From: a virus
Direction: 5' to 3' (one strand)
IMG/VR virus record: IMGVR_UViG_3300030333_006780
Span: 1-28,949 of that record
DNA length: 28,949 nt
Shown here: positions 2,491-28,667 of the stretch, in pieces
Layout: every line of letters starts with the position of its first letter
Position numbering within the stretch: the first letter of the stretch is position 1
Program-made: the position numbers and the translations under genes
The notes under the pieces: generated by a model
Database searches by the model: none
Told to the model about the DNA's origin: nothing
Seen by the model: only the letters and a program-made list of their open reading frames with translations

Positions 2491-2640
2491 ATGGAAAATA
2501 TAGATGAAAAAATAGAGAACTTAAAAAGCCAACAAGAACATGCTAAAGAATTGTTCATTAAATGTCAAGGCGCTATAGAGTTTCTTGAAGGATTAAAAAA
2601 AGAAGAAACTGAGAAGGAAAATAAAAGTTCTAAAAAATAA
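2491..2640 (+). CDS. Small coiled-coil protein (49 aa), unknown function
   Basis: A 49-residue ORF starting MENIDEKIENLKSQQ and ending KENKSSKK. It is almost entirely charged or amphipathic helix with heptad-like spacing, has one cysteine, and has no membrane segment. The start is supported by AAGGA at 2479-2483, 7 nt upstream of ATG. It lies 25 nt after the fibre stop and 2 nt before the next ATG, so it is part of a tight operon. Its position just before a membrane-protein cassette would fit a lysis accessory or a fibre assembly factor, but nothing in the sequence decides this. Confidence 0.6.
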   Translation: MENIDEKIENLKSQQEHAKELFIKCQGAIEFLEGLKKEETEKENKSSKK

Positions 2641-2642
2641 AC

Positions 2643-3026
2643 ATGGAAAGAGTATCTATTAAAATGGAAGATTACGTTAAAGGTGTATTAGGTGATTATG
2701 CTTATTTAATAATAGGAGGTTCGCTTTTATTTATATTTAAATCAACTATTGAATCTGCTGTAGAAGGATTAAAAATATTTCTTGGTAATGATTTGAATAC
2801 TGATGATGTAATCCATTTTGATGGTAAACCTGCTCGTGTTGTGCGTGTAGGTATTTGGAAAACTATACTATTTGTATACTCAGTAGGATGCGCTAATGGT
2901 AAACCTTATATTAAAGGTGGTAATAAGGTGGCTATACAAAATGGCGAATTAAAGAGTCATATAATAGAAAAACCATTACCTATGTTAGACTTGTCTAAAT
3001 GGGATGATTGTGAGGATGAAAAATGA
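2643..3026 (+). CDS. Small membrane protein with MscS-like beta domain
   Basis: 127 aa. There is one strong membrane helix at about residues 18-34 (AYLIIGGSLLFIFKST), then an amphipathic stretch (about 35-48), then a short beta domain. Its pattern, L-N-x-D-D-V-I-x-F-D-G-K-P-A-R-V-V-R-V-G-I-W-K-T followed by KVAIQNGELKSHII, follows the order of the MscS channel family: GD.I...G..G.V..I.I..T then IPN..L....I.N. The protein is less than half the length of MscS, keeping only a pore-helix-like segment and the beta domain. A second in-frame ATG at 2664 has the better SD-like sequence (GGAAAGAG at 2645-2652). The gene is coupled to the next one by ATGA. It could be a channel-forming lysis protein or a modulator of host osmotic channels. 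The MscS resemblance is my reading by eye, without a search. Confidence 0.6.
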   Translation: MERVSIKMEDYVKGVLGDYAYLIIGGSLLFIFKSTIESAVEGLKIFLGNDLNTDDVIHFDGKPARVVRVGIWKTILFVYSVGCANGKPYIKGGNKVAIQNGELKSHIIEKPLPMLDLSKWDDCEDEK

Positions 3027-3196
3027 AGGACACATTAAGAGTTTTATCTGCATACCCTGAAATAGGTATGGGTACTAGTTTTTTCTCAACATTAATAGGC
3101 TTTTTAAAGGTTTTAAACCCTATTCTAACGTTTGTATCATTATCGATTGGAATAATAGTTGGATTAATGACCTTATATGCTAAAATTAAAGGTTGA
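3023..3196 (+). CDS. Holin-like small membrane protein (57 aa)
   Basis: 57 aa, starting inside the previous stop (ATGA). The N-terminus is short and charged. It is followed by TSFFSTLIGFLKVLNPILTF and a strongly hydrophobic segment SLSIGIIVGLMTLYA, and ends in the basic tail KIKG. Two closely spaced hydrophobic segments with a basic C-terminus and a length under 70 aa are typical of small phage holins. Its place beside other tiny membrane proteins, downstream of a tail fibre gene, agrees. AGG at 3012-3015 serves as SD with about 7 nt spacing. No endolysin is visible in the window, so the lysis assignment rests on topology and context only. Confidence 0.6.
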   Translation: MKDTLRVLSAYPEIGMGTSFFSTLIGFLKVLNPILTFVSLSIGIIVGLMTLYAKIKG

Positions 3197-3198
3197 TT

Positions 3199-3336
3199 AT
3201 GAGTGCAGCTTTATCATTTTTAGCTGGCTTTATACTTGTCTTTGGAATAGGCTTGGTGATGTATTGTAAAGTTATGTTAGAGATAGATGAAATGCTTGAT
3301 GATAGCCTTGAAGAAGATAAAGAGAAATGGGAATAG
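3199..3336 (+). CDS. Single-TM small protein with acidic tail (45 aa)
   Basis: 45 aa. One N-terminal transmembrane helix (about residues 3-22, ALSFLAGFILVFGIGLVMY) is followed by an acidic cytoplasmic-type tail (DEMLDDSLEEDKEKWE). It starts 2 nt after the holin-like gene, with AAAGG upstream. The topology suits an antiholin, an i-spanin-like protein or a regulatory membrane peptide of the lysis cassette. It is too short for a full i-spanin, and no o-spanin lipobox is seen nearby. Function unknown. Confidence 0.5.
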   Translation: MSAALSFLAGFILVFGIGLVMYCKVMLEIDEMLDDSLEEDKEKWE

Positions 3337-3482
3337 ATAATATGTGGAAAAAAGAGTTTGAATTAGAGTTATTAGATATTAAACTAAGATTATCAAAGCT
3401 TGAAAAGAATTCACATCCAAAAAGAGATTTTATAACATGTGTTTGTTGTAAGAAAAAGATAAAAGAGAAAAAGGAGAAATAA
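3327..3482 (+). CDS. Small Cys-containing basic protein (51 aa, start uncertain)
   Basis: 51 aa from ATG 3327, or 46 aa from the in-frame ATG 3342. The longer form overlaps the preceding gene by 10 nt and has GAAGAAG at 3311-3317 as a weak SD. A helical amphipathic N-terminal half (FELELLDIKLRLSKLEK) is followed by a Cys-rich knot C-V-C-C and a very basic tail (KKKIKEKKEK). It may bind metal together with a partner or dimerise. Its stop overlaps the next start as TAATG. I do not recognise a family. Confidence 0.5.
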   Translation: MGIDNMWKKEFELELLDIKLRLSKLEKNSHPKRDFITCVCCKKKIKEKKEK

Positions 3483-3634
3483 TGGGTTCATTATTAGGAG
3501 TAGTAGCTACTAAATTATTAAGTGAAAAAGTCTTAATTGCTATTTTATTAAAAGTTGCTGAATGGCTTGTTAGTAGAAGTAGTAACGATTTAGACGATAA
3601 AATATTAGCTGAGGTTAAAAAATCGTTATCATAA
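3482..3634 (+). CDS. Small amphipathic/membrane-associated protein (50 aa)
   Basis: 50 aa. It is coupled at both ends by TAATG overlaps and has a strong SD, AAGGAG at 3471-3476. The N-terminal two thirds are hydrophobic and helical (LLGVVATKLL, then VLIAILLKVAEWLV). The C-terminal third is polar (SSNDLDDKILAEVKKSL). Short proteins of this build occur in phage lysis or virion cassettes, but I cannot assign a function. The coupling implies equimolar production with the neighbouring zinc-ribbon protein. Confidence 0.55.
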   Translation: MGSLLGVVATKLLSEKVLIAILLKVAEWLVSRSSNDLDDKILAEVKKSLS

Positions 3635-3960
3635 TGAAAAAAGAACTTCCAAATCGACTTATCCTTGTAGAGGATTTAGTGGATAAAGTTAAAGGAAGGT
3701 TGCTTGATAGACTTGTTAAAAATCAAGTTAAAATCTTTAAGGATAATCCACGTATATGTCCATCTTGCGGCTTGACTGATATAGTTGGCATAGAGATTAT
3801 GGGAGCAAAAGAAGGAATACTATTATGGGAATGCGAAGATTGCTATGAGATGTTTTTAAGATATGAAGCTAATGAAACAGAAATAGAGCTTCAAGGAGCA
3901 AAGCATTGTTGGACCGTACCTAGTTCTTGGGGTCGCGTTCCTAAAAAAGAATATAACTAG
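3634..3960 (+). CDS. Zinc-ribbon protein, unknown function
   Basis: 108 aa. A helical, charged N-terminus (1-38) leads into a zinc ribbon with Cys pairs C42-x2-C45 (CPSC) and C67-x2-C70 (CEDC) separated by a beta-rich 21-residue segment. A Trp-containing tail follows. Zinc ribbons of this spacing bind nucleic acid or proteins. The gene starts on the previous stop (TAATG), and its own TAG stop forms part of the SD (TAGGAG) of the next gene. The tight link to the downstream phosphoesterase suggests that the two act together, which is inference only. Confidence 0.65.
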   Translation: MKKELPNRLILVEDLVDKVKGRLLDRLVKNQVKIFKDNPRICPSCGLTDIVGIEIMGAKEGILLWECEDCYEMFLRYEANETEIELQGAKHCWTVPSSWGRVPKKEYN

Positions 3961-3971
3961 GAGTTTTTTGA

Positions 3972-4754
3972 ATGAAGAAGAAAAAAGGTGGAGTGCTAAA
4001 GCGTGCTTTAGTAACTCCAGATAAGCATGCACCTATACATGATAAAGCTGCTATCAATGTTGTATGCAAAGCAATAGAACTGGTCAAACCTGATATATAT
4101 GTCGATTTAGGTGACCTAGGAGAGTTCTCAAGTGTTTCTCACTGGCAGTGGAAAAGAAAAAAGAAACCACCTTTGGAATATATAATGCCAAAGGTAGATA
4201 AAGACATAGAAGGTGTAAATGAGTTACTTGATATAATAGATAAATCTTTGGATAAAGTAGGTTGTAAAGAAAGACACATTTGTGCAGGGAATCATGATGA
4301 ATGGTTAGATAGATTCGTAGAAGAGCATCCTTATCTAAACTATCGCTTTAAAGACGTATGTCGTTTTAAAGAGCGAGGATACAAATATCACCCACCTGGG
4401 AAGTATCTAAAAATAGGAAAGCTCTATTTTTATCACGGGCATCACTTTGGTGGTCAATACCACACAGCGAATCATCTAAGGAAACTAGGTGCCAATATAA
4501 TGTATGGTCATCATCATTCCCTGCAACAAGATAGTGTGACATACATGGATGGACCTAAGTCTGCTTGGTCGCTAGGATGTTTAAAAGATATGAGTGCAGA
4601 GAAAAATCAATGGTTAGGTGGAAGACAACATAAATGGGCTCATGCATTTGCAATAGTAGATTACTACAGAGGTGGTAGGTTTACAGTAGATATAGTTCAA
4701 ATAATAGACGGAAGGACAACAGTATGGGGAGAGTTGCTAGATGGGAACAAGTAA
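3972..4754 (+). CDS. Calcineurin-like metallophosphoesterase
   Basis: 260 aa. It carries the full metallophosphoesterase motif series: D17-x-H19 (PDKH), G47-D48 (GDLGE), G106-N-H-D109 (AGNHDEW), H155-G-H157 (YFYHGHHF) and G179-H-H-H182 (MYGHHH). These residues bind two metal ions and support hydrolysis of phosphodiester or phosphomonoester bonds. The canonical second Asp of the GDxxD loop is replaced (GDLGEF). The SD is TAGGAG at 3958-3963, 9 nt from ATG. Phage members of this superfamily include DNA/RNA phosphatases and SbcD-like nucleases; this one lacks the SbcD cap and length. It lies between the lysis and tail genes, not in a replication module, so the substrate is unclear. Confidence 0.88.
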   Translation: MKKKKGGVLKRALVTPDKHAPIHDKAAINVVCKAIELVKPDIYVDLGDLGEFSSVSHWQWKRKKKPPLEYIMPKVDKDIEGVNELLDIIDKSLDKVGCKERHICAGNHDEWLDRFVEEHPYLNYRFKDVCRFKERGYKYHPPGKYLKIGKLYFYHGHHFGGQYHTANHLRKLGANIMYGHHHSLQQDSVTYMDGPKSAWSLGCLKDMSAEKNQWLGGRQHKWAHAFAIVDYYRGGRFTVDIVQIIDGRTTVWGELLDGNK

Positions 4755-4820
4755 TTATAGTTCCTAATGATTATTGGACAAGTTCACATAAAACAGAATC
4801 TTATATAAAGAAGGAGAATA

Positions 4821-7800
4821 ATGCCAAGAAGTTTAAAAGAAATAAAGAAATTTAATGTTGGTACAATTACAGGTTTATCTGAAAGTGATATACCTGAAGA
4901 TTCGCCTGCGTTTTCTTTAAATATTGATTCAAATAAAGAAGCTGGAATTTTAGATGCTATTAATACTGATAAGATAGTAGCTGCTGTTGGTGCTAGTTTA
5001 TGTAGATTTCAAGAAAATGTAAGCTGGAATTCAGAAGAGCTTAATACCGTAGATTCTGCAACATCTAATTTAAGCAGAGTTAGAATATCTAATGTATCTA
5101 TATTTAAAAATAAAAATGAAGGAACTTTGAAATTTGTAGGTACAAAAGGAAGAGAAGAGAATCTTCAAGCTTTTAATATAGAGCCATTCCTTGAAAGGGT
5201 TTCTTTACAAACATTTCAACCAGCGGCTACAATAGGAGTTAATGATACTTTCATTCCGTTTGCAACTGATAGTTCTGAGATGTCAGGGAGTACTGGTGCT
5301 TTTAATGATATATCTGGAGTAAAGGCAGGGGATTACTTATCTTTTTCAGAATCTGGTACAAATTTCTACGGAAGACAAAATAGTGAAATACTTCAAGTAA
5401 CTAGTGTTAATGTTGTTGAAAATAGGATATATATTAAAAGAAAATGCTTTGGCACTTTATCTCAAGAATTAAACTCTTCTAAAGAATATGAATTTTATTT
5501 AAATAGAATTACAATAGGTGATTCTCAAAGCCGAACATTAGCAGGTACTTGTTTTATTGGTGGATGGAGTAGATATTCTGGAAATCATATTAATGGTAAT
5601 TCTTCTTATATTTCTAAGTTTGATACAACAAATTCAAGATATGCGGGTAGAATTGATACTTCAGCTGCAAGTAGGACTGTCAATTATTCTGGAAAAACTA
5701 TAACTTTTAATAATATGGCAGAAGCAAATGATTCACCTTCTCATTTAAGATTTTATGAAGGAGATATTATAACTGTATATGAAAATGCATCTACAAATAA
5801 TAATGGATATAGAGGTAAAATAATAAAAAAAGAAGGTAGTACAAATGTAACCCTAACATTAGATACTGCTTTACCTGAAAATGAAGATGAATCAAGCAAC
5901 ATAGTTTATTTAGAAGCTAATTTATTAAAAAATCATACATTTCAACATGCTCAAAGCAATGGAACGCAAAGTCCAGGAGCATCTAATCAGTACAAAGTAA
6001 ATGATTGGTTGCATAAAGCTTGTTCATGGGGAGCTTCTGGTAGCCCTAGTGGAGGAGACCCAGAAAGAACATTTAATGTATACGCAAATCAAACTAGTAA
6101 TAAGGTATCTGTAGTAAGCTCAGGAGGATATTGGGATGAAGCTCAACCAAGAGAGTCTAATTTAGGTTCTGAACTAGCTGTAAATGGAGATATGGAAACA
6201 TTTCCAACACTAGGTACAACTAATGATACTTTTACAGATGATTCTGCTCAAGGTGACCAACAAATAGTTATGGTTACAAGTAGTGATGAAGCTAATAATG
6301 GTAGTAAGAGTGCAAAATGTACACTTGATGGAGATACTACAGGTTGGGTTAGTTACAATAGAGATGATTATGTAGTAGGTAAGACTTATAAAGCTGAAGT
6401 ATATATGAGAAAAGGCAGTGGTCAGGCATTCACTTCTTTCCAAATGTTTGCTGCTAATGCTTTAAGAACTGAAACATTATCTGGAGAAATACTAACCCCA
6501 ACAGAAACATTCAAAAAAGCTTCTATTATTTTTAGAGCTACTCATACAACTATGATGATAAATATGAAATTTATCGGAACTGATGGTCATTTCAGCTATA
6601 TAGATGATTTTAGTATAAAGGAATATGGAGATGCATCTGCTTTATATTACCCTTTTGAATCTAATGATAAATACTTGAGAATAACTTCTGAGTACAAAAA
6701 GACAACACTTTATTTAGAAAATGATATTTCAACAACTTCAACTTATTTAGATATTAAATTTGTTGGAACTGCTGCTAATAAGAATGCACCAGAAATATTA
6801 GCTAAAGGAGATATAATAAGCCTTGAATCAAGCACATTTGATGCCAATACTGAATATATGAGAGTTGTATCAATAGAAGATAATGTTGTTAGAGTTGTTA
6901 GAAAAACTTTTGGAACTAGTCCTGTGGCAATATCAGCTAGTCTTAGTGCTAGGATATATAAAAATAGAAATCACCATATAACTCAAGATGTTGAGTCAAA
7001 ATATTTAAAAGCTGGACAAAGATATAAATTAACGTTTTATGCAAAAACTTCAGATGCAAATTCTTCTGGAGCTATAGCATTAAATATTAATGGTGGTTAT
7101 TTTTCTTCAGATGGAAAATGGACACCTAAAAGCGTCAATAAACAAGAAGGATATATTAGCAGAAAGAATGACGTATCGGCTTCTGAAACTAGATGGATTC
7201 CATTTGTATCACTAGAAAAGCCAGATGGAGATACTATTATTAATGATAATGGATTAGATAGTTATTGGAGAAAATTCTGTCTTTATTTTGAATTACCTAA
7301 AGACAAATTATATACAGATTTAAAATTAGAAGTGGCTAGTAGGGGAAAAGAAGGCACTTCAATAGATTTAGACTTGTTTAATTTATGTGAAGATACTCCT
7401 GTCTATGCATATAGAGAAGGTTTAGATAAATTAAGTTCAATAGGAAAAATAGATAATAAAGGGAATAAAGATATTATTGCTTATAATTCAATAACAAATA
7501 AATTACTAGCATTAAAATCTTTTTCTATTGATAGAGACCCTTATTCTCAGAATAGAGAAGATTTTATAGAACATTCTCCTTTTGCAACTAAAGAATTAAA
7601 TGTATCTAAAAATAGTTTACCAATGATTCCTAATAATAGGGAACTTCATGTTGGATTTGGAGGTAATGAATCTAGCACATCTCCTCAATGGATTGGATAT
7701 ACAAATAGGAAAATATTTGGAAGAGACTTAACAAATGTATTATATCAAGATGAAGATACAGTCCATACCTATGATAAAATAACAGCAAACTCACTAAGTA

Positions 7801-10800
7801 AAGTTTGTGTAGCTGGGGAACATGAATATGTAAAAGCATATTGGAATAATTCTGGTGGAACAATTACTAATAATGCCGTTGGAACTGATGATTTAACAGA
7901 TAATACTTTAAGGATTCACCATACAGCACATTCTATGGAAATAGGAAATAATATTATTATAAGAAAATGGGGAGATACTCCCAATGAATGGGATGGTTCA
8001 GGTTTATGGATAGTTAAACTTATAGCGACTGATTATTTTGATTGTATAAGATATACTACTAAAGACCCTGACCCAGCAGAAGAAGGAATTATAGGAACTT
8101 CTAGTACTTCTTATAGTGCTCCTAATGTTACTGTGAATTGTGATGCAAGTCATAATTTATTAACAGGAGATAATGTTCTTATATTTGGAGGAACAGCTGA
8201 TGCAGATGTAAATACTACTCATAGTGTAACCGTAACAGATGCTGATACATACACTTTTTCTGATGCTGATTCATCAAGTATAGGGAATGATACTAACGTA
8301 GTAACTGTTAAAGAATTTAGAATAAACTATAGACCTTATCATTATTATGGATGTAAGGTTGGAGAGCCTTATATCTATAGAATATGGCCTGAAACTAGGA
8401 TTGATGAATCTTTAGCTGTAGATAATGAATTTCCAGCTGGATTAATAGAAAGAAGTCAACCTTTAAGTATTAGATTAAACTCTATTTGTACTTATTATGC
8501 TAAGGAATCTACAGACAATACCCCAGCTTTAAATGGTGGTAGAATATATGCATTAGGAGCTTATGGTACAAATTCAGGTGTTAATGAAGTTCTTGTAGTA
8601 GATGTTCAATTAAAATTTAATGAATGGAAGAAATTTACATTACCAGAATATGGTCCATCTACTTTAGCTTTCAAAGCTTATAAATGGAGTAATGAAAGAA
8701 CAGATGGGGATATAGAACTAAATAAAGGTGTATTTGGTGGTACTGCAGATGAGAGTACCCCCTCTATTAGATATGCGGGAACACCAACTGATATAATTGA
8801 AACAAAAGGAACTAAAGAAACTTTTGATAGCGATGTTGTTGAAGGTCAATGGCATGTAAATACTCCTTATGATTTTGATACTAGATTATGGGTTTTATGT
8901 AGTCCTGAAGGTGATAATAAATTTTCAGATGGAGATAGGTTTCTATTTTGTGGTCTTACTACTGAAGAAAACACAGCAGGAGGATATAGTATATATTTAG
9001 GCGACAGAACTCCTCCTACAACTTCTATTGTTAGTGACGAGTTTGATACAGGCAGAGGGAGTGAAGAATTTTTAGAAGGTGGGCCTGGGGCATCTCCGTG
9101 GTGGGATAATCCTTTATGGAACAGATATGCGGTTAGCGATTGGGAAGTTGGAGAAGAATATTTCGATGAGGATGGCAATCTTATTCCACCATCTACAATT
9201 ACTTATGAAAAATGGAAAGGAAAATATGGACCTACTGAGCTTGATGCAAAAGATATAGCAGACGCAGAAGCTACAGTCTGGGGTAGTTTGGAATTTGGAA
9301 GTGGAACTCAACTTGATTTAGAAAGCATGTTAAATCTTGGCGCTAATATTGGTTGGGATTGCGGACTATCGTCTGCAAGTGGCGATTTTTCAGCTATAGA
9401 GGGAGATAGAGTTGCTTTAGAAATACCTAGATTTGGTTTATTTGCTATGGCTGATAATGATGGTGATGGAGTAATTGATGGTACTGGAATACCCGTATGC
9501 AACAAGACAAGTCTTCCTAGTCAAATAACTACTGGAGGGACAGCTAAATGGATGGGTCCATATGGAGAAAAACATAGAAGGGTAACATCTCATTGTGTTG
9601 GCGTTATAGGAGGTTCTAATAAATCTTGGTGGAGAAGTTGGGGTAGAATATGTAAAGTTCCAGATGATGGAGAATATCATCCAGGCAATACTAATAAAAT
9701 AGCTAATTGGGGAGTATCTCCAGAAAATATTGAAAGTGGTGGTTGGAGTATGGATGCTCCTGAAAAAATAAATATGGATAAATTTATAGCCGTATGTCCA
9801 GATATACATTTTGGAGATATGCCTATGCCTCATAGCTTTGAAATAAATAATACTGGGAATGTACCTAGAAATTATACTGATACTGGCACAGGAAACTATA
9901 CAAAGGTAAAATTAAAAGCAACTCATTCTGAGCTTGGAATTAGTCAAGATACATCTTCATTACAAGCTGGAGACCCAATCTTTATAGCAGATTCATCTAC
10001 ACAAGCAGACCAATCTAATGCTAAGTATGGTAGTACTTATATAGTTAGAATATTATCTAATGATGAAATTCTTGTTCCAAGAGCTTTTGATGCAGATATA
10101 AATGATAAAATATTCTATGTTATGACTCCATATCTAAGAACAGTTAGTATGGTTTCTGCTTCAAGTGTTTATGGAACGAGAGGATGTTTGCCTGAGTTTG
10201 CTGGAGTAACTGGTTTTGATGGAGCTGGTGACCAGCATTATCATTGGGCTCACGATTTAAACGACCCTGCTAATGGAAATTGCTTTTGGGATAGAAAAAC
10301 AATAGCTAATGGAAATGATTTTTTATTAATGGGTCACGAAGAGAAAAAAGGTAAAGTAACTTATCCAGGCAATTTTGCAAAAACATTTTATCAGACTCCA
10401 ACTAGATGGGGTAGCGATGGAACTGGTAATTACAAAACAATACTTCCAGGAAGTATATTCAAATTATCAAGATTGAACTATAAAGCTGGTGTAATGATGA
10501 GACCTTTTGATATATCTGACAATACATTTCAAGATTTAGTTATTGGTAATGGAGTTAGCGTTGATATGCCTTGTTTTCCAGATGCAGTTCATAGATGGAA
10601 AGATGGAAGCAAAATACACTCTTCTATAGGAGATACAAGTGAAGATAATAAATTTTCAAGTAAATTATTTATAGCTTCTGATGTAGATGATGAAAGTTCA
10701 AAGCTATATATTATAGACCTTGATTTTCAATACCCTGGAGAAGGTTATTCAATGCCTTTAAGTTCAAGAACTTCTACTTTAGCAGAGGATTTAAATAATG

Positions 10801-13616
10801 GATTTCCAGAAGATGTTATGTTGGCTGGAACTATAAATGATTATACTCTAAATGAATATAATACTGGAGCAACTACTGATTACCCTTCAAGAGATATACA
10901 CCCTTCTGTAATTATACCTGGAAGACAAGAACTTCAGGGGGATATAATGACAAGTTCAGATACAGACAGATGGAACTTAATTACTGCAGTATCATCTCAT
11001 TGGAGAGATAAAAATGCGTTTACAGGTTTATGTATATCTATAATGGGGCAAAAAGGAACAATTCAAACAAGGCAAATAGTTTATAGCAATAGTCATCAAG
11101 CTGGAGGCTCTCCTGCTGCAACTGATGAAATTCAATTATTTTTACATGCTCCTCTTGGGAATGATGTTAGACAAAATAGCGAATATTGGATATGGTCTCC
11201 AGAACAAGTATGCACATCACCTGTTAGATTGTACAAACAAAAAGCATTACCTCACGGGTTAACACATCCTGATAGTACAACTAGCGCAAATGCTTTAGCT
11301 TGCAAATATGGTCCTTTTGGTACAATACCTGCTTATAGAGACAAGGAAGCTGCTAGACAAAGCAACTTAATAACATCAATGTCTGAGTCTGGTTATGTTG
11401 CTACTATAACATGTTTAAGGCCACATGGATTATCAACAAATGATGAGGTTGAAATAGTATCTAAATCTTCAGGGAGTATTAATTATGAAGATTATAATTA
11501 TCCTCAATCAGATTCATCTTACAATGGTATTTATAAAATAACTGTAACTGGAGCAAAGACATTTACATATACTCTTAATCCTGCATTAACATATACAAGT
11601 CCAAGTGTTAGTGGGGATTTTAATGCAGTAGCTGGGTGGAATGCACATGATTCATCAACCTCTGCAAGTAATCCTTTAAAAATAAGCTCAACTACGCCTA
11701 TAATTAAATCTATGTTTGGAGGATTAAATTTAAGGGCATTAAGGCATTATTCAGCACAAACAGCTGACCCTGCGATTGATGCTGGAGAAGGCGGTACTGG
11801 GGAAGCTAGAGTTGTTACTACAGCTGCTCATTTATTAGGAGATGGAGAACAAGTAACAATAGATGGCACTAGCTCAATTTATGATTCGACTTACTATACA
11901 AAAGATTCTACAGGTAGTCAATTTGATATAATGAGCACTGAGTCATCTGATGATGATGGTGATAGTGTAAAAATATATACAAATAAATGGGAATTACTTG
12001 TTGCAGAGACAACAGGAGATGGAAGAATCGGAATGGTATCAGCTGGAACTACAAGTTGGGATAAAGGAAATAGAGACGATAATATGATACGTTATGACTT
12101 CTTAACTGCTGATGAAGAAGATATATATTTGCAAGTTATAGAAGATAATTTAAATGCAGAGCCAGATTCAGTTGCAAATCAAGATGGCGACTATTTTATG
12201 GCTAATAATGAATATACATATAAAGTTTCATTTATATATGATGGGTATCAAGAAGGTCCTATAAGCTTAACTCAATGGAATTTTAAAAGTCAAAACTCAT
12301 ATTCAAGACTTAATCTTGTTATTAAATTATTGCAACATAGTTATAGGCTGAGCCATGTATGTGTATATAGAAGAGATTTTTCTGCTGATTCATTTAAGCT
12401 TGTTCAAGAAATTTCAACAAAATCTGGTTGGGTAAGAGACGGGGAAATTTATTCAAGAGCAATATCAGATGATGGGAGTCTTGGTGCTACTTATGAATCA
12501 AGAACATTAATGCCTGAGACATTAGATACAGTTAAAATAAAATACGGATTATCAGCAGAAATTGATGGATATTTATTTGTAGGAGATGTTTATCATAGTA
12601 GGGTTGACAATGCATCTAATCAAATATTTAGGTCAATGCCAGGACAGTTTAGCTTGTTTAATTATATATACGATTATCAAGTATTAAAATCTAGACCAAC
12701 TGCTTTAGCTAATTTTAATGGAAGATTATATGCTTTTGATAAGTCTAATATTTATAAAATAAATCCTCAAAGTTTAAGTATAGAAGACATATTTGAAGGA
12801 ATTGGATGTTTATCATCTGATAGTTTTACAGTAACTGAATTTGGTATGTTTTTCGCAGATAAGAATGGAGCTTATTTCCACAATGGTCAAACTCCAATAA
12901 AAATATCTGAGCAAATATATCAAAGTGGAGATTTGGATAATGATTTCTATGCTAATTTCCCTAATTCAACAGACAATATTAGAGATTTTTCATGGTTAAA
13001 TATAATGAACCAACCTAATCAAAGCTTGTATATCATTTATGATGCAAAATCTCATAGTGTTTTATTCTTTTTCGATTTTATTACAAAGAAAACTACAGAG
13101 TCTGTTGGAGTTGTATATGAGCAAACTTTAAAAAGAACTTATGCTTGGTCATATAATGTATCTAGAAAAAGATGGGATTTATGGGAGGTTTGTTCTGGTT
13201 CTTTAATTGGTAAACCATTCTTAGAGAAGAATGGAAAAGTATGTATAACTATTGATGATACTATACATGAATATAGAGGAGGCTCTTCAAAAAGAGATTA
13301 TACTTGGGTTAGTAAAAAACTTACAATGGGAGAAGATTCTATAATTAAAGTATTTAATAAAATTAAACTGAATGGAATAACAGAAGACTTAAATAAAGGC
13401 GGGAATTATATAGAGAGTGCTAATAGATTGTTGCTATTAACAAGTGAAGGTATTCCAACTTCTACATATTCTACACCATCACTTAGTTCTTCTTATCAAT
13501 CAGATTATAAATTAAGTGGAACAAAGAAAGGTAATTGGCTTCAAATTAAGCTTGATAGTATGACAGAACCTTTAGATTCTATAGGTATAGTATATAGAAG
13601 AAAGAGCACTAAGTAA
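4821..13616 (+). CDS. Giant tail protein: stabilization-like ends with inserted lectin-like modules
   Basis: 2931 aa, SD AAGGAG at 4811-4816. The N-terminus (FNVGTITGLSESDIPEDSPA, then LNID) resembles the start of phage stabilization/tail-tube-associated proteins. The C-terminal part (about 2400-2931) has the beta-propeller-like phrases GYLFVGD, NGRLYAFDKSNIYKI, FGMFFADKNGAYFHNG and a final SIGIVYRRKS, typical of the same group. Between them lie inserted modules. Residues 451-606 look like a CBM4_9-type jelly roll (NGDME, then GKTYKAEVYMRKGSG, then YIDDFSIKE). A second jelly roll appears split between about 367-440 and 720-860. Tail-type small domains occur at about 145-230 and 650-715, and an EF-hand-like loop DNDGDGVID at 1545-1553. 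Likely role: the tail hub/stabilizer carrying glycan-binding decorations. The module borders are by eye. Confidence 0.72.
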   Translation: MPRSLKEIKKFNVGTITGLSESDIPEDSPAFSLNIDSNKEAGILDAINTDKIVAAVGASLCRFQENVSWNSEELNTVDSATSNLSRVRISNVSIFKNKNEGTLKFVGTKGREENLQAFNIEPFLERVSLQTFQPAATIGVNDTFIPFATDSSEMSGSTGAFNDISGVKAGDYLSFSESGTNFYGRQNSEILQVTSVNVVENRIYIKRKCFGTLSQELNSSKEYEFYLNRITIGDSQSRTLAGTCFIGGWSRYSGNHINGNSSYISKFDTTNSRYAGRIDTSAASRTVNYSGKTITFNNMAEANDSPSHLRFYEGDIITVYENASTNNNGYRGKIIKKEGSTNVTLTLDTALPENEDESSNIVYLEANLLKNHTFQHAQSNGTQSPGASNQYKVNDWLHKACSWGASGSPSGGDPERTFNVYANQTSNKVSVVSSGGYWDEAQPRESNLGSELAVNGDMETFPTLGTTNDTFTDDSAQGDQQIVMVTSSDEANNGSKSAKCTLDGDTTGWVSYNRDDYVVGKTYKAEVYMRKGSGQAFTSFQMFAANALRTETLSGEILTPTETFKKASIIFRATHTTMMINMKFIGTDGHFSYIDDFSIKEYGDASALYYPFESNDKYLRITSEYKKTTLYLENDISTTSTYLDIKFVGTAANKNAPEILAKGDIISLESSTFDANTEYMRVVSIEDNVVRVVRKTFGTSPVAISASLSARIYKNRNHHITQDVESKYLKAGQRYKLTFYAKTSDANSSGAIALNINGGYFSSDGKWTPKSVNKQEGYISRKNDVSASETRWIPFVSLEKPDGDTIINDNGLDSYWRKFCLYFELPKDKLYTDLKLEVASRGKEGTSIDLDLFNLCEDTPVYAYREGLDKLSSIGKIDNKGNKDIIAYNSITNKLLALKSFSIDRDPYSQNREDFIEHSPFATKELNVSKNSLPMIPNNRELHVGFGGNESSTSPQWIGYTNRKIFGRDLTNVLYQDEDTVHTYDKITANSLSKVCVAGEHEYVKAYWNNSGGTITNNAVGTDDLTDNTLRIHHTAHSMEIGNNIIIRKWGDTPNEWDGSGLWIVKLIATDYFDCIRYTTKDPDPAEEGIIGTSSTSYSAPNVTVNCDASHNLLTGDNVLIFGGTADADVNTTHSVTVTDADTYTFSDADSSSIGNDTNVVTVKEFRINYRPYHYYGCKVGEPYIYRIWPETRIDESLAVDNEFPAGLIERSQPLSIRLNSICTYYAKESTDNTPALNGGRIYALGAYGTNSGVNEVLVVDVQLKFNEWKKFTLPEYGPSTLAFKAYKWSNERTDGDIELNKGVFGGTADESTPSIRYAGTPTDIIETKGTKETFDSDVVEGQWHVNTPYDFDTRLWVLCSPEGDNKFSDGDRFLFCGLTTEENTAGGYSIYLGDRTPPTTSIVSDEFDTGRGSEEFLEGGPGASPWWDNPLWNRYAVSDWEVGEEYFDEDGNLIPPSTITYEKWKGKYGPTELDAKDIADAEATVWGSLEFGSGTQLDLESMLNLGANIGWDCGLSSASGDFSAIEGDRVALEIPRFGLFAMADNDGDGVIDGTGIPVCNKTSLPSQITTGGTAKWMGPYGEKHRRVTSHCVGVIGGSNKSWWRSWGRICKVPDDGEYHPGNTNKIANWGVSPENIESGGWSMDAPEKINMDKFIAVCPDIHFGDMPMPHSFEINNTGNVPRNYTDTGTGNYTKVKLKATHSELGISQDTSSLQAGDPIFIADSSTQADQSNAKYGSTYIVRILSNDEILVPRAFDADINDKIFYVMTPYLRTVSMVSASSVYGTRGCLPEFAGVTGFDGAGDQHYHWAHDLNDPANGNCFWDRKTIANGNDFLLMGHEEKKGKVTYPGNFAKTFYQTPTRWGSDGTGNYKTILPGSIFKLSRLNYKAGVMMRPFDISDNTFQDLVIGNGVSVDMPCFPDAVHRWKDGSKIHSSIGDTSEDNKFSSKLFIASDVDDESSKLYIIDLDFQYPGEGYSMPLSSRTSTLAEDLNNGFPEDVMLAGTINDYTLNEYNTGATTDYPSRDIHPSVIIPGRQELQGDIMTSSDTDRWNLITAVSSHWRDKNAFTGLCISIMGQKGTIQTRQIVYSNSHQAGGSPAATDEIQLFLHAPLGNDVRQNSEYWIWSPEQVCTSPVRLYKQKALPHGLTHPDSTTSANALACKYGPFGTIPAYRDKEAARQSNLITSMSESGYVATITCLRPHGLSTNDEVEIVSKSSGSINYEDYNYPQSDSSYNGIYKITVTGAKTFTYTLNPALTYTSPSVSGDFNAVAGWNAHDSSTSASNPLKISSTTPIIKSMFGGLNLRALRHYSAQTADPAIDAGEGGTGEARVVTTAAHLLGDGEQVTIDGTSSIYDSTYYTKDSTGSQFDIMSTESSDDDGDSVKIYTNKWELLVAETTGDGRIGMVSAGTTSWDKGNRDDNMIRYDFLTADEEDIYLQVIEDNLNAEPDSVANQDGDYFMANNEYTYKVSFIYDGYQEGPISLTQWNFKSQNSYSRLNLVIKLLQHSYRLSHVCVYRRDFSADSFKLVQEISTKSGWVRDGEIYSRAISDDGSLGATYESRTLMPETLDTVKIKYGLSAEIDGYLFVGDVYHSRVDNASNQIFRSMPGQFSLFNYIYDYQVLKSRPTALANFNGRLYAFDKSNIYKINPQSLSIEDIFEGIGCLSSDSFTVTEFGMFFADKNGAYFHNGQTPIKISEQIYQSGDLDNDFYANFPNSTDNIRDFSWLNIMNQPNQSLYIIYDAKSHSVLFFFDFITKKTTESVGVVYEQTLKRTYAWSYNVSRKRWDLWEVCSGSLIGKPFLEKNGKVCITIDDTIHEYRGGSSKRDYTWVSKKLTMGEDSIIKVFNKIKLNGITEDLNKGGNYIESANRLLLLTSEGIPTSTYSTPSLSSSYQSDYKLSGTKKGNWLQIKLDSMTEPLDSIGIVYRRKSTK

Positions 13617-15976: not shown

Positions 15977-18900
15977 ATGGCTCAACAACAACAACTCGTT
16001 GAACAACCTCAGGAACAACAATGGGTTCCCCAATTTAATCGAGAACAAACTCGTAATTACATAAAACTATATAATAAGACTCCAGGAAGGTTTAATGAGG
16101 AGTTATTAAATAGAATTAGGCAACATGCTCAATATCATAATGTTCCTTTTTATGAAGGGGATTTTTCTTTATTAGAGGCCGTTAAACAAGCTGGTGCAGG
16201 ATTTGTAGAAGGTTTTACAACTCTTCATATAGCTGACCATCCAGATAATGAATGGGAAGCAGTATTTAGAAGTGCTGGTCATTTAGCTGGATTTGCTCCA
16301 GGAATAATGTCTGCTCCTCTACGTAAAATAGGAGTACTTGCTGGTTCTAAAACATTAGCAGAAGCTTCTAGGATGCTTCAAGGTGCTAAAGGTCTTCCAT
16401 TATTAGCTGCTACAAAAATTACTAAAAGAGCTAAACCATATGCTACTGCTATTAGAGATTCATCAACGATGAAAAGAGCAGCTGAAACAAATTCAGTATT
16501 AAAATATTTAAGAGGCAAGGAAGCTTCAGATATAATAGAAGGAGCATTTAATCTTGGTACTGCTAGTGCAATATCTACTTGGCAACAAGGAGTAGATGGA
16601 ATGATAGATGGCTTTTTTAGTGGAGCTGTTGCAGGTGGAGTATTTAAAGGTATTGGTAATAGAATTGCCATGAAAGACCCTAAAGCAGAGATGTATGCAA
16701 GAGGGTTAGCAGGTTCCTTGTTTATGGGTCTACCAGCTACTATTCGTGGTGCAACTATGCCTGAACAGATATATGAATATTTAATGGGAGCTTACTTTGG
16801 AGGTTCTGAAAAGTCTTGGAAACAAGTAGAAAGTGTTAAATTTTTACAAAAAGGTATTAAAAAATTAGATAAAGACCCTGAATGGGGTAAAAGATTTGAC
16901 CCTTCTGAAGTAGAGGGATTTTATAAGCTAGAACCACAGGTTCAAGAGTTAACAAAAACTAAATATGAACAATATGCTAAGCAGAGAGTAGACCAAGCAG
17001 GAGCAGGAGCATATGCTATTCTTGAAGAATTTGGTCAATTGGATAGAATTCCAGGAGAAACTCCTTCAAAGAAACTGAAGAACTTAGGGCAACAAGTAAT
17101 TAATGCTAGAGCTGACAGAGAGTTAGATATAAAAGCTACTACTAAGAAAGCTCTTGAAAAATCTATTGGTAAAAAAGGTTTATTCGTGGTATCCCCAGGT
17201 AAATCTGAAATGCAAAGCTATATTGAAAGCCTTGCCTCTAAAAAAGGTATATCTGTTGTTAAAATGATGCAACCAGAAGATAAACCTTCTGTTAAAACAA
17301 GGCCAAATGTATATGAAATTATTCTTAATAAAAAGGATGTAAAGACTGGTGATAGAATACTTAGAAAAGCTATTAGAAATGTTAAACAAATAGAAATAAA
17401 TACAACAGGGCAAACTACTTTAGATGAAGGTAAGTTTACAGATTATATATTTAACGCTTTAAATAGAGATGCTAGAAGTGTTTTTAGGTCTGACTCTGTT
17501 ATAGCTATAGACAATCTCAATATGAATACTATGAAAACTACTAAAGGTATTTCTAGATTACCTGTTCAGATGGGAGTGGATTTAAAAAAACCTACTTATC
17601 TTTATGACAAGTCTTTTCAAAGATGGTTTAAATATGACACTAAAACTGAAGCGTTTAAACCCCTTGAGGTTGGAGAAACTCCAGAGTTAACAACAGCTCC
17701 TTCTTTTTTCGGTAGAAAGACATTAGAAGGGAATGAAAAATTAGCTATAAAATCATTATTTGATACAAAAGAATTTAAATTTAAATCAGAAAAACTAAAA
17801 CCAAATAAAGAAAAGTTATTAGAAGAGACTGAAGAAAAGAGACTATCACAAGAAAAAGCTGAAAATGAGCTAGATACAAGTGAAAGAACATCAGGATTAG
17901 AGGGTAGTAGTATATCAGCACAAGTTGAATCAAAACTAAGACCTCATTCTAAGGAATTTAAATCTTTAGATGGAAAGGAATTAAAGTTAGAAGGCAGGGA
18001 ATTAGATAATAAACTATTAGACGTTGAAACTTCTATTGTTAAAAATGCTTTAAATTATATAACTGGCACCAAGCAAACTAAGTCAAGAGAGCTTATTAGA
18101 GATATTGAAGATGAAGTTGATATGCAACTTCCAAATTCTTTTAAATTGCAAATTAGAAAATATTTAGCTGGGTTAAATCAAAATAGACCTAAAAGATTCT
18201 TAAAAGTTTCTGATTCAGAAATAGATATAATTTCATTAGAATCCCCTTATACATATGGCAATGAAGTAAGAAATCAAAAACAACCTCCTACTGCTATAGA
18301 GGAATATTATGTAGAAAAAACAAAAAAGCCCTCTAAAGAGCCTGTTTTGATTGAATTAGATGCATTAACACATAAAGAAGTAGATTATAAAATATCTAAC
18401 TTTGATTATGTTGCAGCAAAGGTTGAAGCAGCTCAAATACAAGAGCGATTTGGTTTAATGCGAGGTGAATTTTCAGAAATCATGGAACAAAAATCTAAAT
18501 TAAAAACAAAAATGATAACAGATGCTGTTAAAGCTATGAATAAGAAAGGTTATCATTTGTATGGAGGTTCTGGAGATAAAGATAAATTGCAATTTATTAA
18601 ATATCATCCTGACTATAAGAAAGTTAATCTTGTTGCAAAAGGCTTTAATTCTAAAACAATGCCTGAAAGTATTTATAAACATGCAAAAAAAGAATATGGA
18701 TTAAGTAAAAAAGAACATGACGATATGATGCGTTCTATAGTAGCTTATGGAGAAGCGTTAAATGAAGTTCCTATAGAAACTATGGCTAAAAATAAAGGAG
18801 ACTTTATACAAAATGCTGTAAATGAAAATAAAAGAGCTCAAATATGGATGACGAATGGATTATCTGGAGATAAAGAGTTTATAAAAGACCCTAGTCAACA

Positions 18901-21900
18901 TGGTGAAAATCTTCATTTGTCTAAAAATAATAACTTTAAAGCCGTTATGATAGATGTAGAAGGTAATTCGAAAGACTTGTTGAATGCATTAAATGTTAAA
19001 TTACCTCAAGGAACAGATGGAGCTATATTAGGAACAACCGCTTCTATCAACGCTATGAATAAAGATGCTGGATTACCCCCTACTGGAAGCAACAAGTCAT
19101 TTTTAATTCAACGGAATCCAGATGGTACTATATTAGGTAAGTATATGATTGTTGCTGTTCCTCCCAAGTATTCTAAGATGATGGAATCTTATAAAAATAC
19201 TAATCCAGAACATGGAGCTGGTATTAACTTTTTGATGTATAAAAGTGGAATTAAACAAAAAGGATTGAAAAAAGCTGGAGATTATGAAGTTAAGAATGGA
19301 AAATTAGAGCTTATAGGAAATCCAGATGTATTTGAAATCAATCCATCATCATTTAAATACTCACAATCAGTATTAAATGATAATGCTATGATTGGATTAA
19401 GTGAAGTTGGTAATAGAGCTATTGGAGTAACTTTGATTAAACAGCTTATGACAAGTCAACATCCCGATATGTTTTCATCTGTACCTAAAGAAGTTATATC
19501 TGATATGTATAACGAAATAATGCAAAGAGCTCATGACGGAGACTCTATTGTAAATAATAAAGTAATGGATTTTTTAAACAATCCTAGTCCAAAATTAAAA
19601 AAAGAAATACTTGATAATTTTGAAGATATAGGTCTTCCTACTATATATTCTGCTTTAAAATCGAGAACTAAAGAGGGTAGAGAATTAGCTAAAGATTTAA
19701 TGCAAAAGATAGTAAAGATTCATAAAGATAGTGTTGAAATGCTTAGACAATCTGGAGAAATATCTGGAGTTGAAGCTCAAGAACAATTACAAGAAGCTTT
19801 ACAATTTACTTCAGCTGCTGATAAGTCATTAAAACTTATATCTTCAATTGAAGGTGCATATCCATTATATTTTGATAAAGGAGTTAAAAGATATGTTAAT
19901 CAAGCATTAAGAAGATTTGTAGGTCAAAGAGTACTTACGCCTAAAGTTAAAAATGCAGGTGTATTCAGAATGAGACCTTATGATAAGTTTATGCAAATAG
20001 AGTTTCCAGAGTTTAATAATGATGCTTTAGCAATGAAGAAATATGGAGTAAAATCTGATGAAATATTTAGATTAGGAGATGTAGCAAGAGACATGCCTTT
20101 ATTTACAACTATTAAAGGATATGAAAAAACAACTTTAGGTAAATTATGGGATGCTACAAAAGGCAAGAATGGACCAAGAACTAGTAATTTTTATAATAAA
20201 AATAAAGATAAAATTGAAGATGTTTTAGAAGCGTTAAGTGTAAGGGTTCCTCAAGACTCACCTTCAGGTGCTCAGGTTTTAAAATTTGTAGGCTTTACTG
20301 GAGTTAGAAACCATGAAGTATTGCTTCACAGCAGAGCTATGGAAGCTCAAGGTGGAGCTGACCTTGATGGTGATGAATCATTTATATATTTTGGTGGAAG
20401 AAATAAAGATGGCTCAGGTCAAGGTATGAAAAAAGAATGGAAGGATATGTTTAAAGCTCAGAAAAAAGAGTTTCATACTGAAGATGGAAAATCTATTAAA
20501 GATGCTAAAGACCAATATAGAGATAGAATTACACTTACTCCTGAAATAGCTAAAGAACAAGGATTAGACCCTAAATTTATACAAGAAGTCAATAGTAATT
20601 TTTATGCTAAATTTTCACCTGTTGTAAGAGCATTTACAGGTAGAAGAACAGCACAAAGTAGAGGTCAAATGGGACCCGTTGTTACTATGACAGCAAATTA
20701 TAGGCAAGCTTGGTCTTCTATGCTTAATTCAGCAAATGGAAAAGATTTAGTAATGAAAACAGTAGTTGATTCTAATTTCTTTTCAAAGCATATATCAACA
20801 GCAAAGCTTTTATCAGGAAATGTTGTTAGAAAATTATACTTAGTTCCAAGAAATAAAAGCTCAGAACAAAGAGATTTAACTAAAGCTTTAATAAATTTTA
20901 CTGCTGACCCTGCAAATGAAACTGGATTAATAGGCATAGGAGAAATGTCAAAACTTCTAAAAAAGGCTTATTTTAAAGAGAAAGTTATGTTTGAGTATAA
21001 AGGTCGAGAGTTTGAAGATACTCCCAAAAACAGGGCAAAATACGGCTTATCTGGCAAAGGGCTTAATGAAATGCTTAAAGTTTCTCATGAAATGGGCTTA
21101 AATGGGTCTTCGAAGTATAATTTTAATAGATACGACTTGGTTAGAAATATTAACTCTGCATTCTTTGGTAAAAATAGAGATGATAAAAGGATGTGGACTA
21201 ATTATGAAATTCAAGAAATGATTCAAGACATCAACAAGTATAGTACTTCAGAGCATACTACTGCTATGTTTAAATTTGCAAATACTTTAAAAGGTTTTAA
21301 TTTTCAAATATCTCCATTCGACTGGGTTAATGCTAGGTCATATAGAGATAGAATGTCTGAGTTTAATCAAGGTCTTAAAGATTCTTCTTTCCCTGAAAGT
21401 AAATTTAAAGATTTATTAAGCAGAACTAAAATAAGAGAAGGTAATAGCCCTCAAGTAGATTTTATTACATTAAATGATTTACATATAGAGAAAAATCAAA
21501 GAGCTTTAGCTACTGCGGAAATGAATAATAAAGGTTCTATTATTCAATTATTGAAAAATGCAACTAAAGGAAGACAGCAGAAAGTAAGCCCTGAATATAT
21601 AGCTCAAATAGAAAAACTTATTGAGACTAAAGGGCCTTTAAATGCAATTAGAAAAATATTAAATGAAGCTGAAGATTATTTCTCTAATGCTCTTCATAAT
21701 ATGTCAACTTTAGATGTTATTGTTGACATATATAATAAAGCTGAAGCATCTGGTAATAAAATATCTAACGCTGAAATGGATAGATTGGTTAAAAGAGCTG
21801 ATGAATTAAAACAAGATTATGCAGAAAAAGCAAAAGCAAGAAACAGACCTGATGTTCCAATTGAACCTGAGTCTATATCAGATTTAAAAAGTCAAACAGT

Positions 21901-24900
21901 CTTTGAAAAATTAAAAAGAAACGTTGCTAAAAGACAAGGAATAAGACTTTCTAAGAAAGTTAAAAAAGATTTACCAACTTTAAAAACTACTAGATTACAA
22001 GATTTAGGAAGTATAGACGCAAGAATTAAAAAGTTTAAAGATAGTCTTGAAAATACTTACTCTAAAGACATGTTTGATGCTTTAATTATAGGCTCTTTAA
22101 GACCTGCTACTCCTCAAAAATTGCAAAAATTTAAACAATTTAGAAGAAAACGTAATCAACTTGGTTTAGAAAAAGATATAGTACAATCAGTAGTTAAAGA
22201 AGGTTCAAGAACAAATCAAAGTCAATTATATTTAGATTCTAAAGAGATAGCTCCAAAGAGTATTATAAACTTTTTCAAAGTTAAGAATAAGTATTTCCTT
22301 GATGCCTATAAGCCCTATAAAAAACAAGATTTTGAAAATCTAGTTAAGAAAACTGAAAAAGAAATGGAAATAGTAGAACCTAATACTTCTATTGTTGAAG
22401 AAGGTAATTTTATTGAAAAATCACAGGGATTTAAAGGTATTAAAAAGGGTGATTTAGATGCAAAGCAATCTCAAGTTACCGCTGAATTAATAAATAATAT
22501 TAAACTATATAATGCTCAAAATAAAGACATGAATGCATTATTGGCTGGTATCTATACAAGAATAGACCCTGAAAATTTACCTAAAAGCTTAAATCAAATG
22601 ACAATAAGAGATTTTGAACTTATAAATAATTGGTTCAGATTTATTAAACAAGGAACACTTGAACAAAAGCTTAATAGAGCTTTAACTGATTTGGAAAAAG
22701 CTAAATTAAGTAAGATGGATTGGTATGAATTTCCTTTAACTACTAATAGAAAAATGATGAAATTTGATATGGTATTTCTACCTAAACAAGGATACTTTAG
22801 AGGTAAAGTAGGTGAAAAAGCTAAAGCTGGTATGGTTTTAAGACCCACTTATTATGGAGAAATCTTACAAGATACTATTGGAAAAGTACAAGATGCAGCT
22901 CAAGGTGAAGCTTTTAAACTGTCCAAGAAATTTACTGATGAAATTCAATATTTAAAACAAACTAATGTTGCTGAAGATGGCAATGCAATATGGAGAATGG
23001 CAGTTAGAAAACTTGAACTACCTCAAGGTTATAATATGGAACCTGCTAATAATATATATGATAAATTATTTAAAGAATCTAAGATTAATAATAATTGGAA
23101 AGAAATAAAAGACAAGCAATATATAGTTGATTTCGGTAAAGGTAAAGAAAGAACTAAAGTTAAAGGTAGTGATTTAATTGATATAACTATGAATAAGATT
23201 GATTCTTTCTTTAAAGGAATTCATCCTATTATAGCTGGTAAAGATATAACCTTAAAAGATGGAACTAAAGCTAAAGCCTGGGAAAAATATAGAAGAGGTT
23301 GGTATGATGAAGCTGAAACTCAACCTATATTAAACTATAAAGAATTTATAAAAGATGTTACTAAATCTATGGCTAAGGGCGAAGAGTTTACTATGGATTT
23401 AGGTATAGATGGTATGCGTCATATGGCAAGAGCTATGACTATTGACTTAATTCCAGCAAGTGAATACATAGGAACTGGTAAACATAATTTTGAAAAGATA
23501 ATGAGTGCTAAAAAATACTTTAAATTAAGTCGTAAAGAGCAAAAAGATTGGAGACCTCATAAAGAAATTATAGCTGAAGCTTATAAAGATGTTATTATTG
23601 AGAATACTGGCGAAAGAAAAGGTTATTTCCCTCATTATTATCCAGAAACTAGTAAAATTAAAAAGATGAGAGATAATGAATTAGATATTTTAATGAAAGA
23701 TACTAAAATGACTCGTCAAGAAAAAGAGTCTAAGTTAGCTGAAATTATGTTTAAATATAAAACAAGAACAGGTGATTGGGATTATGGTGATTATGCAGAT
23801 TGGGCTCAAATGAGAGATACTATTCTTCCTGGAGCTATTAAACAAGTTGAGCAGAAAGTTAGTCAAGCTAGAGAAAAAACTAAAATTAAAACTATTGTTC
23901 CTAAAATGGCAAACCAGTTTAAAAGAGAAAATCATATTGGAGGTTGGGATATAGACCCTGTTAATGTACAAACTTATGTAAATAATGTTACCAATACTTA
24001 TTTTAGACAGCTTGGTAATATATTAAATACTGTTACCCTTCATACTATGAAACAAAGATTAAGTAAAAAATGGGTTAAAGGTACTGAAGCTCAAAAAGAA
24101 GATGGTAGAAAATTAGCAAATGGATGGGTTCAATTTTGGAAACAATATGTTTCTGAGGCTATGGGTAATCCCACTATTGTATCTAAAGAATTATATAATG
24201 ACCCTAATATGAAAATACAAGGCACTTTATATGGAGCATTTGCAGATAATTTAATGGCTAAAAAAGTAAATAAATTAAGAGAAAAGCTTAAAACAAGGAA
24301 AGATGCAAAAATAGAAAAATATTTTGCAGATTATTCTGAAACTACAGGTAAAGATGCTTATGATATGAGAAGATGGTCACAAGTTGAAGCTCAATGGGAA
24401 CTTGCTACTTTAATGACACATCCCAAAACTCCTATTAATAATGTATTTGGAGGTACTTTACATACAGCTTCTTCAGCTAGTTTTACTAACCTTAGAAAAG
24501 CTAGAGATATTGAGTATTTGCAAAGAATTAATCCAAAATGGACAAGTCGTCAAAAAGTAACTGATTTTATGGAAGAAATAGGTGTTGGTCCAGAGTTACT
24601 TGCTCATGAGTATGGTTTGAATAAGCAATTTAAAGAAGGTGCTGCTCTTGAATTTACAAGAGAATTAGCTAAGAAATTTGGAGGAAGTAAAGATGCATCA
24701 TTGAAAGATGTTTTGTCTTTAAAAAATAAGCATGGTGTGAGTAGAAAAATTATGGATAAAGCTGTTCTTTTCATGTCTAAACCTGAAAAAGCTTTAAGAA
24801 GAGATTCTTTTATGGCTCATTATATTAAAGCCTGGGAGCGTTTAAATGGTGCAGTAACTAATCCTTACGACCCTATACTTATTGAAATAGGCAAGCAAGG

Positions 24901-28154: not shown

Positions 28155-28667
28155 TTAAAAGTCTCGGCTTGACATTTTTCTTAATACATATTTTCTTAAA
28201 TCGTATTCTTGTCTATCAAGCCATTTTAATAATTTCCTAAAATTTCTATCTGTTAAAGGTCCTTTTCTTGTATTGCATCTTCCACATATCATTTGAAGGT
28301 TTTCAGGAGTAGAGTTACCACCCAAGCTGAGAGGAATAATATGGTCACATACCATATTATTAACAAGTAACTTAGAATTGCAATAATTACATTGTTTTCC
28401 ATAAACTCTATATAATAATTCTCTAACTTCTTCAAGAGATATATTAAATTCAACTTCATATTCCTTACTCCTTCTTTTTAATGTAGACCTTAATGTAGAA
28501 GATTTTTTCATCAATCTATGGAATGTTTTTTTAGCGTACGTTCCATGGTTCTTTTTCAATTTTCTATTGAATTTTTTCTCCCAAATAGTCAACCTATTAG
28601 GGGACTTTCGCCCCCTTTTAGGTTTATAATACCGCTTCTTTTTATGCTCTTCCAGCTTCATAGTCAT
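28155..28667 (-). CDS. HNH endonuclease
   Basis: 170 aa. The N-terminal 75 residues are very basic (YYKPKRGRKSPNRL and KRRSKEYEVEF), likely for DNA binding. The HNH core contains C93-x2-C96, then C107-D108-H109-I-I-P-L-S-L-G-G, PENLQMIC, and C128-x2-C131-N-x-R-K-G. This is the zinc-stabilised beta-beta-alpha-metal nuclease with D108/H109 as the catalytic pair. It cuts DNA; free-standing phage versions are often homing enzymes or act in packaging. There is no packaging gene nearby and no interrupted gene, so a homing or early role is more likely. It overlaps the upstream gene by 26 nt; a second start is ATG 28661. Both starts have weak SDs. Confidence 0.88.
   Translation of the reverse strand: MTMKLEEHKKKRYYKPKRGRKSPNRLTIWEKKFNRKLKKNHGTYAKKTFHRLMKKSSTLRSTLKRRSKEYEVEFNISLEEVRELLYRVYGKQCNYCNSKLLVNNMVCDHIIPLSLGGNSTPENLQMICGRCNTRKGPLTDRNFRKLLKWLDRQEYDLRKYVLRKMSSRDF
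28335..28361. repeat. 11-bp hairpin inside the HNH motif
   Basis: AATAATATGGT (28335-28345) and ACCATATTATT (28351-28361), 11 perfect bp around a 5-nt loop (CACAT). It encodes the residues just before and through the catalytic CDHII of the HNH enzyme. Confidence 0.6.

Follow-up and report, generated by a model that had tools for sequence, protein, structure and literature searches.

What does a phage gain from a protein that looks like the core of a mechanosensitive channel? The gene that raises this question is found at 2643..3026 on the + strand of a virus sequence. The window we analysed is 28,949 bases long and forms the start of a virus record of 52,711 bases. A direct repeat of about 88 bases, near-identical in its two copies, is found at both ends of this record, which suggests that the record is a complete genome. 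The mini-MscS-like gene, mini-MscS from here on, sits in a + strand run of structural genes between a tail-fibre gene and a metallophosphoesterase (MPE) gene. Its assignment rests on conservation, dN/dS, structure models and a profile comparison. It encodes 127 residues, or 120 residues if translation begins at the ATG at 2664..2666 (M8, + strand). This alternative start aligns with the start of the relatives and is probably ancestral. Since the relatives begin where this internal ATG sits, the true product may have 120 residues. The stretch 2643-2663 is conserved in the window's subfamily only.

The protein belongs to a sizeable family. At least 82 relatives are found in IMG/VR with a single-sequence search and at least 132 with an alignment search. 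We assembled 107 distinct gene sequences from viral loci, and the identity of relatives to the window protein is mostly 57-95%. Within the window's subfamily, 44 pairs give a dN/dS of about 0.057, so the protein is under strong purifying selection. It has no match by sequence in Pfam, PHROGs or the PDB. The original prediction named PF00924 as its check, and neither the window protein nor any of 47 family members matches this family. MscS membership therefore cannot be claimed by sequence, and we call the protein MscS-like in architecture.

The cultured phage records searched offer no relatives either. Searching them by tblastn with divergent members gives chance-level matches only. The sole tblastn match in cultured phages is to Salmonella phage S.Kent (E 0.5), which we consider chance; it is antisense to an ORF that by eye is purH-like. 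There are mscS genes in "phage" records, but these are partly bacterial contigs and the genes are for full-length channels. OR850920, OR851380 and AGRM01000002 are phage-collection records with a bacterial mscS and are probably mislabelled bacterial contigs.

Since sequence families are silent, it is worth considering the architecture. TM1, TM2 and the alpha/beta cage of MscS are absent, and both the sequence and the models have one hydrophobic helix only. This single predicted TM helix (residues ~12-33, 2676..2741, + strand) matches TM3a of MscS. It is preceded by an acidic N-tail and followed by a basic flank, with mean net charges of -2.4 and +1.2. These charges suggest an N-out/C-in orientation, as for TM3 of MscS. 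An amphipathic continuation (residues ~34-48, 2742..2786, + strand) matches TM3b; the amphipathicity of residues 33-48 has p=0.04. The MscS-type beta (Sm-like) domain comes next (residues 50-109, 2790..2969, + strand). It is four- to five-stranded and has an insertion in the beta3-beta4 hairpin. The protein ends about 18 residues past this domain. Where MscS has its cage there is a conserved C-terminal tail, KPLPMLDLxxWDDC (2970..3011, + strand), in which P111, L112, L115, D116, L117 and W120 are invariant across the family. Most of the motif that first drew attention to the gene (DDVI...VAIQNGEL) is invariant or almost invariant in the family as well.

Two template-free AlphaFold models were made, one for the window protein and one for a 70%-identical orthologue from a lysozyme-containing locus. 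The window protein was modelled with AlphaFold2 from the family's own alignment. Its model has a long helix (8-47), strands at 56-59, 62-69, 73-84 and 87-99, a short helix and a last strand at 107-109. Confidence is moderate for both, with a pLDDT of 67 and a pTM of 0.43 for the window protein and 78 and 0.53 for the orthologue. When Foldseek is run against the PDB, ranks 1-43 for the window model and ranks 1-35 for the orthologue model are all MscS-family structures, at modest E-values (5e-3 to 0.1). VIA-align 2 gives the MscS family ranks 1-39 for the window model, and the best match is EcMscK (Z 8.1, 82 residues, 1.9 A, model residues 18-111). The orthologue model has MscS-family structures at VIA-align ranks 1-46 with a best Z of 8.4. 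The miniature MscS of Trypanosoma cruzi is among the VIA-align matches. A Z of about 8 is not decisive alone, as the tool itself notes, and unmatched models can reach it; it is the uniform MscS list that carries the weight. It must be noted that the two models are replicates and not fully independent, since most of their alignments are common to both. The structural alignment puts MscS 92-180 onto residues 13-111 of the window model, which is TM3 plus the beta domain. Among viral predicted structures, three unnamed small proteins match at E < 1e-3.

Profile comparison is another line of reasoning. An MscS profile was built from a 34-sequence alignment of E. coli MscS and cyanobacterial homologues. 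A broader phage set aligned to it with hhalign scores 26.6 (p 3e-4). All 300 column-shuffled controls score lower; they average 12.1 (sd 2.3), and the highest reaches 24.4. The set of 47 phage sequences scores 24.7 (p=7e-4), and at least one of 200 shuffles is higher (max 25.7). The hhalign register is the same as the structural register; it pairs TM3b, the GD-V of beta1, beta2, the T of beta3 and the IPN-like IQN before beta5. Taken together, the models and the profile comparison support a predicted TM3-like helix joined to an MscS-type beta domain, which bears out what was originally read from the 127 residues.

How does this compare with known proteins? It shares with E. coli MscS, MscK and YnaI the TM3-like helix, the amphipathic continuation and a beta domain of the same topology that ends in a similar way (IPNGKI in MscS, IQNDKL in the phage protein). 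It differs from MscS in its missing TM1, TM2 and cage, in its lack of a PF00924 match, in the insertion of about 12 residues in the beta3-beta4 hairpin and in an identity of only about 15%. The Gly/Ala pore face is missing too, as the TM helix has no significant face of this kind like that of TM3a (small-residue moment, p=0.6). TcMscS of Trypanosoma cruzi has an N helix, TM2, TM3 and a beta domain but no cage, and is a functional heptameric channel (PMC12334622). The phage protein is likewise a TM core plus a beta domain without a cage. However, TcMscS is eukaryotic and keeps TM2 and the N helix, while the phage protein is smaller and has the TM3 equivalent only. Viral MscS-like proteins have already been published (PMC6163359). 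One case of a phage protein that remotely matches MscS is gp51 of the Paraglaciecola phage PANV1, which HHpred matches to 6RLD with probability 99.7 (PMC9239159). Going by the published description, it comes from another phage type and host, its TM helix is uncertain, and the paper analyses neither its context nor its function. A literature search that covered few subscription journals found no published phage protein made of TM3 plus the beta domain only, nor its lysis context.

The next question is whether the neighbourhood is a lysis cassette, as originally proposed. Upstream in the window are a tail-fibre-like ORF (3-2465), with many GxNxxIG-type beta-roll repeats and a chaperone-like end that is S74-type by eye, and a 49-aa coiled-coil protein with a weak match to phrog_580 (2491..2640, + strand), which lies between it and mini-MscS. 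Downstream, also on the + strand, is tm57 (3023..3196), a 57-aa single-TM protein that overlaps the mini-MscS stop. It is followed by a ~45-aa single-TM protein with an acidic tail (the t40 family, 3199..3336), a 51-aa coiled-coil protein with a CxxC (3327..3482), a 50-aa protein of phrog_402 (3482..3634), a 108-aa zinc-ribbon-like protein (3634..3960) and the MPE-like gene (3972..4754). The predicted "holin-like gene" is thus real as an ORF, but it is holin-like by size and context only. Its best holin match in PHROGs is not significant (E 0.24; best in the tm57 family 0.1). The cassette claim is partly supported. There is a small-membrane-gene context, and several related clades have lysozymes, but no recognised lysin is near mini-MscS in the window, and searching the record gave no PF00959 lysozyme. 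A candidate hydrolase in the record (39574-40116) has no significant family match and was rejected.

Some other features of this 52.7-kb genome can be recorded here. Two giant ORFs lie amid the structural genes at 4821-13616 (2931 aa) and 15977-25555 (3192 aa). An HNH / endonuclease VII-like gene is at window 28155-28667 on the - strand (PHROG E 7e-21). Ten Ns from record position 28950 (L156:951-960) are a scaffold gap within the adjoining RecA/DnaB-like ORF. Two neighbouring ORFs at about 31990-33601 of the record, on the - strand (L156:3991-4725, 4658-5602), resemble, by eye, a protein of ThiF/E1 type and a metalloprotease of JAB/JAMM type (HSHH...D). They are a possible ubiquitin-like-pathway pair in a phage.

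Context was counted over 92 distinct mini-MscS relatives. tm57 overlaps or closely follows mini-MscS in 51 of these. In another 23 a PF00959 lysozyme is 0.8-1.5 kb upstream (counted within 2.5 kb). tm57 and this lysozyme are found together in 0 of the 92, though their exclusion is not absolute, since both a lysozyme and a divergent tm57 occur in the L092 clade. The lysozyme matches PF00959 (E 2.7e-13) and PHROG endolysin (E 2e-19) and is about 40% identical to annotated marine-phage lysozymes. The gene that overlaps or directly follows it is often a 49-57-aa TM protein or an XhlA-like coiled-coil TM protein. In other relatives an XhlA-like protein is coupled to mini-MscS instead; the XhlA-like matches are sub-threshold. 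One clade has the order terminase, hydrolase, mini-MscS, portal. About 30 bp separate the end of its lysozyme-like or transglycosylase-like gene from mini-MscS, which lies downstream. This hydrolase call comes from motif reading and a sub-threshold match, and transglycosylase is a call by eye. Read in tip order, the mini-MscS tree has these contexts interspersed, so the association has probably been rearranged more than once. Homology of tm57 to the lysozyme-overlapping TM gene is seen only by way of an intermediate, the L092 clade; hhalign gives 4.9e-7 if this clade is included and 0.025 if it is not. A tblastn search with the lysozyme-overlapping protein found nothing beyond chance matches, in cyanophage terminases.

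Within the window's capsid lineage, 3 of 20 long contigs have mini-MscS. This is a lower bound, since several of the contigs are fragments. It does imply that lysis does not need mini-MscS. The MPE region is present and read in records without mini-MscS, so the gene is accessory. Among 13 records tested, tm57 was found only in those that also have mini-MscS. Related phages without mini-MscS have other small TM proteins at the same site, XhlA-like in some cases. Some of these looked BhlA-like by eye, but there was no BhlA match. Three records without mini-MscS (L344, L347, L348) have a conserved 102-aa TM and coiled-coil protein (phrog_18771) at the site. It occurs with an XhlA-like gene in two of the three, which makes a candidate alternative lysis pair. 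The mini-MscS site is best described as a variable island of small membrane proteins with a character that is lysis-like but unproven.

The carriers are uncultured, apparently marine phages. The capsid protein has no close cultured relative; the best is Roseobacter phage CRP-810 at 27.5%. A 46-kb phage contig with mini-MscS and tm57 (L155, QCPL01000010.1) belongs to a single-cell assembly of Prochlorococcus that was deposited as a bacterial genome. The contig may be an infection or a co-sorted virus. Full-length bacterial MscS is found in that assembly and in 39 of 39 genomes searched of its phylum.

We argue, with moderate confidence, that mini-MscS is a minimal MscS-like ring channel that would permeabilise the host inner membrane, or set the timing, late in infection. 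One TM3-like helix, N-out, would lead into a cytoplasmic MscS-type beta domain and the short conserved tail. We infer that the ring would assemble through the beta domain, as a heptamer by analogy with MscS and TcMscS. The ring would then be a pore, or a tension-sensitive regulator of one, in the host inner membrane. It may act late together with tm57, XhlA-like proteins and the endolysin to control membrane permeability at lysis. A point against a channel is that a single TM in each subunit might not suffice for a pore of the MscS type. A new type of phage lysis pore is also conceivable. The one-helix MscS-derived ring, which would be the smallest MscS-type channel, could work as a holin or pinholin gated by tension or voltage, or could time a holin, and would so link membrane tension to the moment of lysis. 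We consider this narrower proposal unlikely. Like small phage holins and XhlA-type proteins, mini-MscS is a small TM protein encoded among other small membrane proteins, and several relatives have an endolysin nearby. It differs from them in its folded cytoplasmic beta domain, which holins are not known to have. There is no significant holin match among family members either; the best holin PHROG has an E of 0.24, in one member.

The alternative that survives best is that the protein has the MscS fold but is not a channel. It would be a membrane-anchored beta-domain scaffold or adaptor that recruits a partner with its invariant KPLPMLDLxxW tail. Conservation peaks in the beta domain and the tail and not in the TM helix, which fits a scaffold, as does a helix with no Gly/Ala pore face. 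However, the closest structural matches all span TM3 together with the beta domain. We consider a scaffold a minority possibility.

An osmotic safety valve is less probable still. In this scenario the protein keeps an infected, wall-stressed cell intact until assembly is done, which is protection of the host and not killing. Osmoprotection is the known role of MscS-type channels, and TcMscS, whose core is reduced in a similar way, is mechanosensitive (PMC12334622). But the possible host has an MscS of its own, as do the 39 genomes searched of its phylum. One study found no protection of E. coli by MscS against lysis from beta-lactams (PMC8372035), and frequent proximity to lysozyme genes does not fit a protective role.

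We have little faith in a virion or DNA-entry protein that would form a membrane channel for genome ejection. The gene does sit between tail-fibre and tail genes, and the MPE gene, which adjoins mini-MscS in most relatives and is mostly upstream of it there, weakly matches phrog_1745 "DNA transfer protein" (2e-6). Yet one clade has mini-MscS between terminase and portal, and the gene is accessory in the lineage.

The last two scenarios are both very improbable. A dominant negative would co-assemble with or poison host MscS so that the cell bursts more easily; what mini-MscS retains is just the pore-adjacent core, and the possible host phylum has full-length MscS, but at such low identity to MscS mixed rings are unlikely. 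A Sm/SH3-like barrel that arose by convergence, with a membrane anchor and no relation to MscS, would explain the lack of a sequence-family match, the Sm/Tudor-like folds lower in the structure match lists and the moderate model confidence, but not why the MscS family fills the top Foldseek ranks for both models, why the alignment spans TM and beta domain, or why the profile alignment repeats the structural register.

The minimal ring channel is therefore the reading we carry forward. If mini-MscS conducts, it would be a channel smaller than TcMscS and would show that TM3 and the beta domain suffice for an MscS pore. If it acts in lysis, a pressure-relief module of the host would have become a lysis tool of phages, and the coupled tm57 would count as a holin candidate in a widespread group of uncultured phages with few recognised lysis genes.
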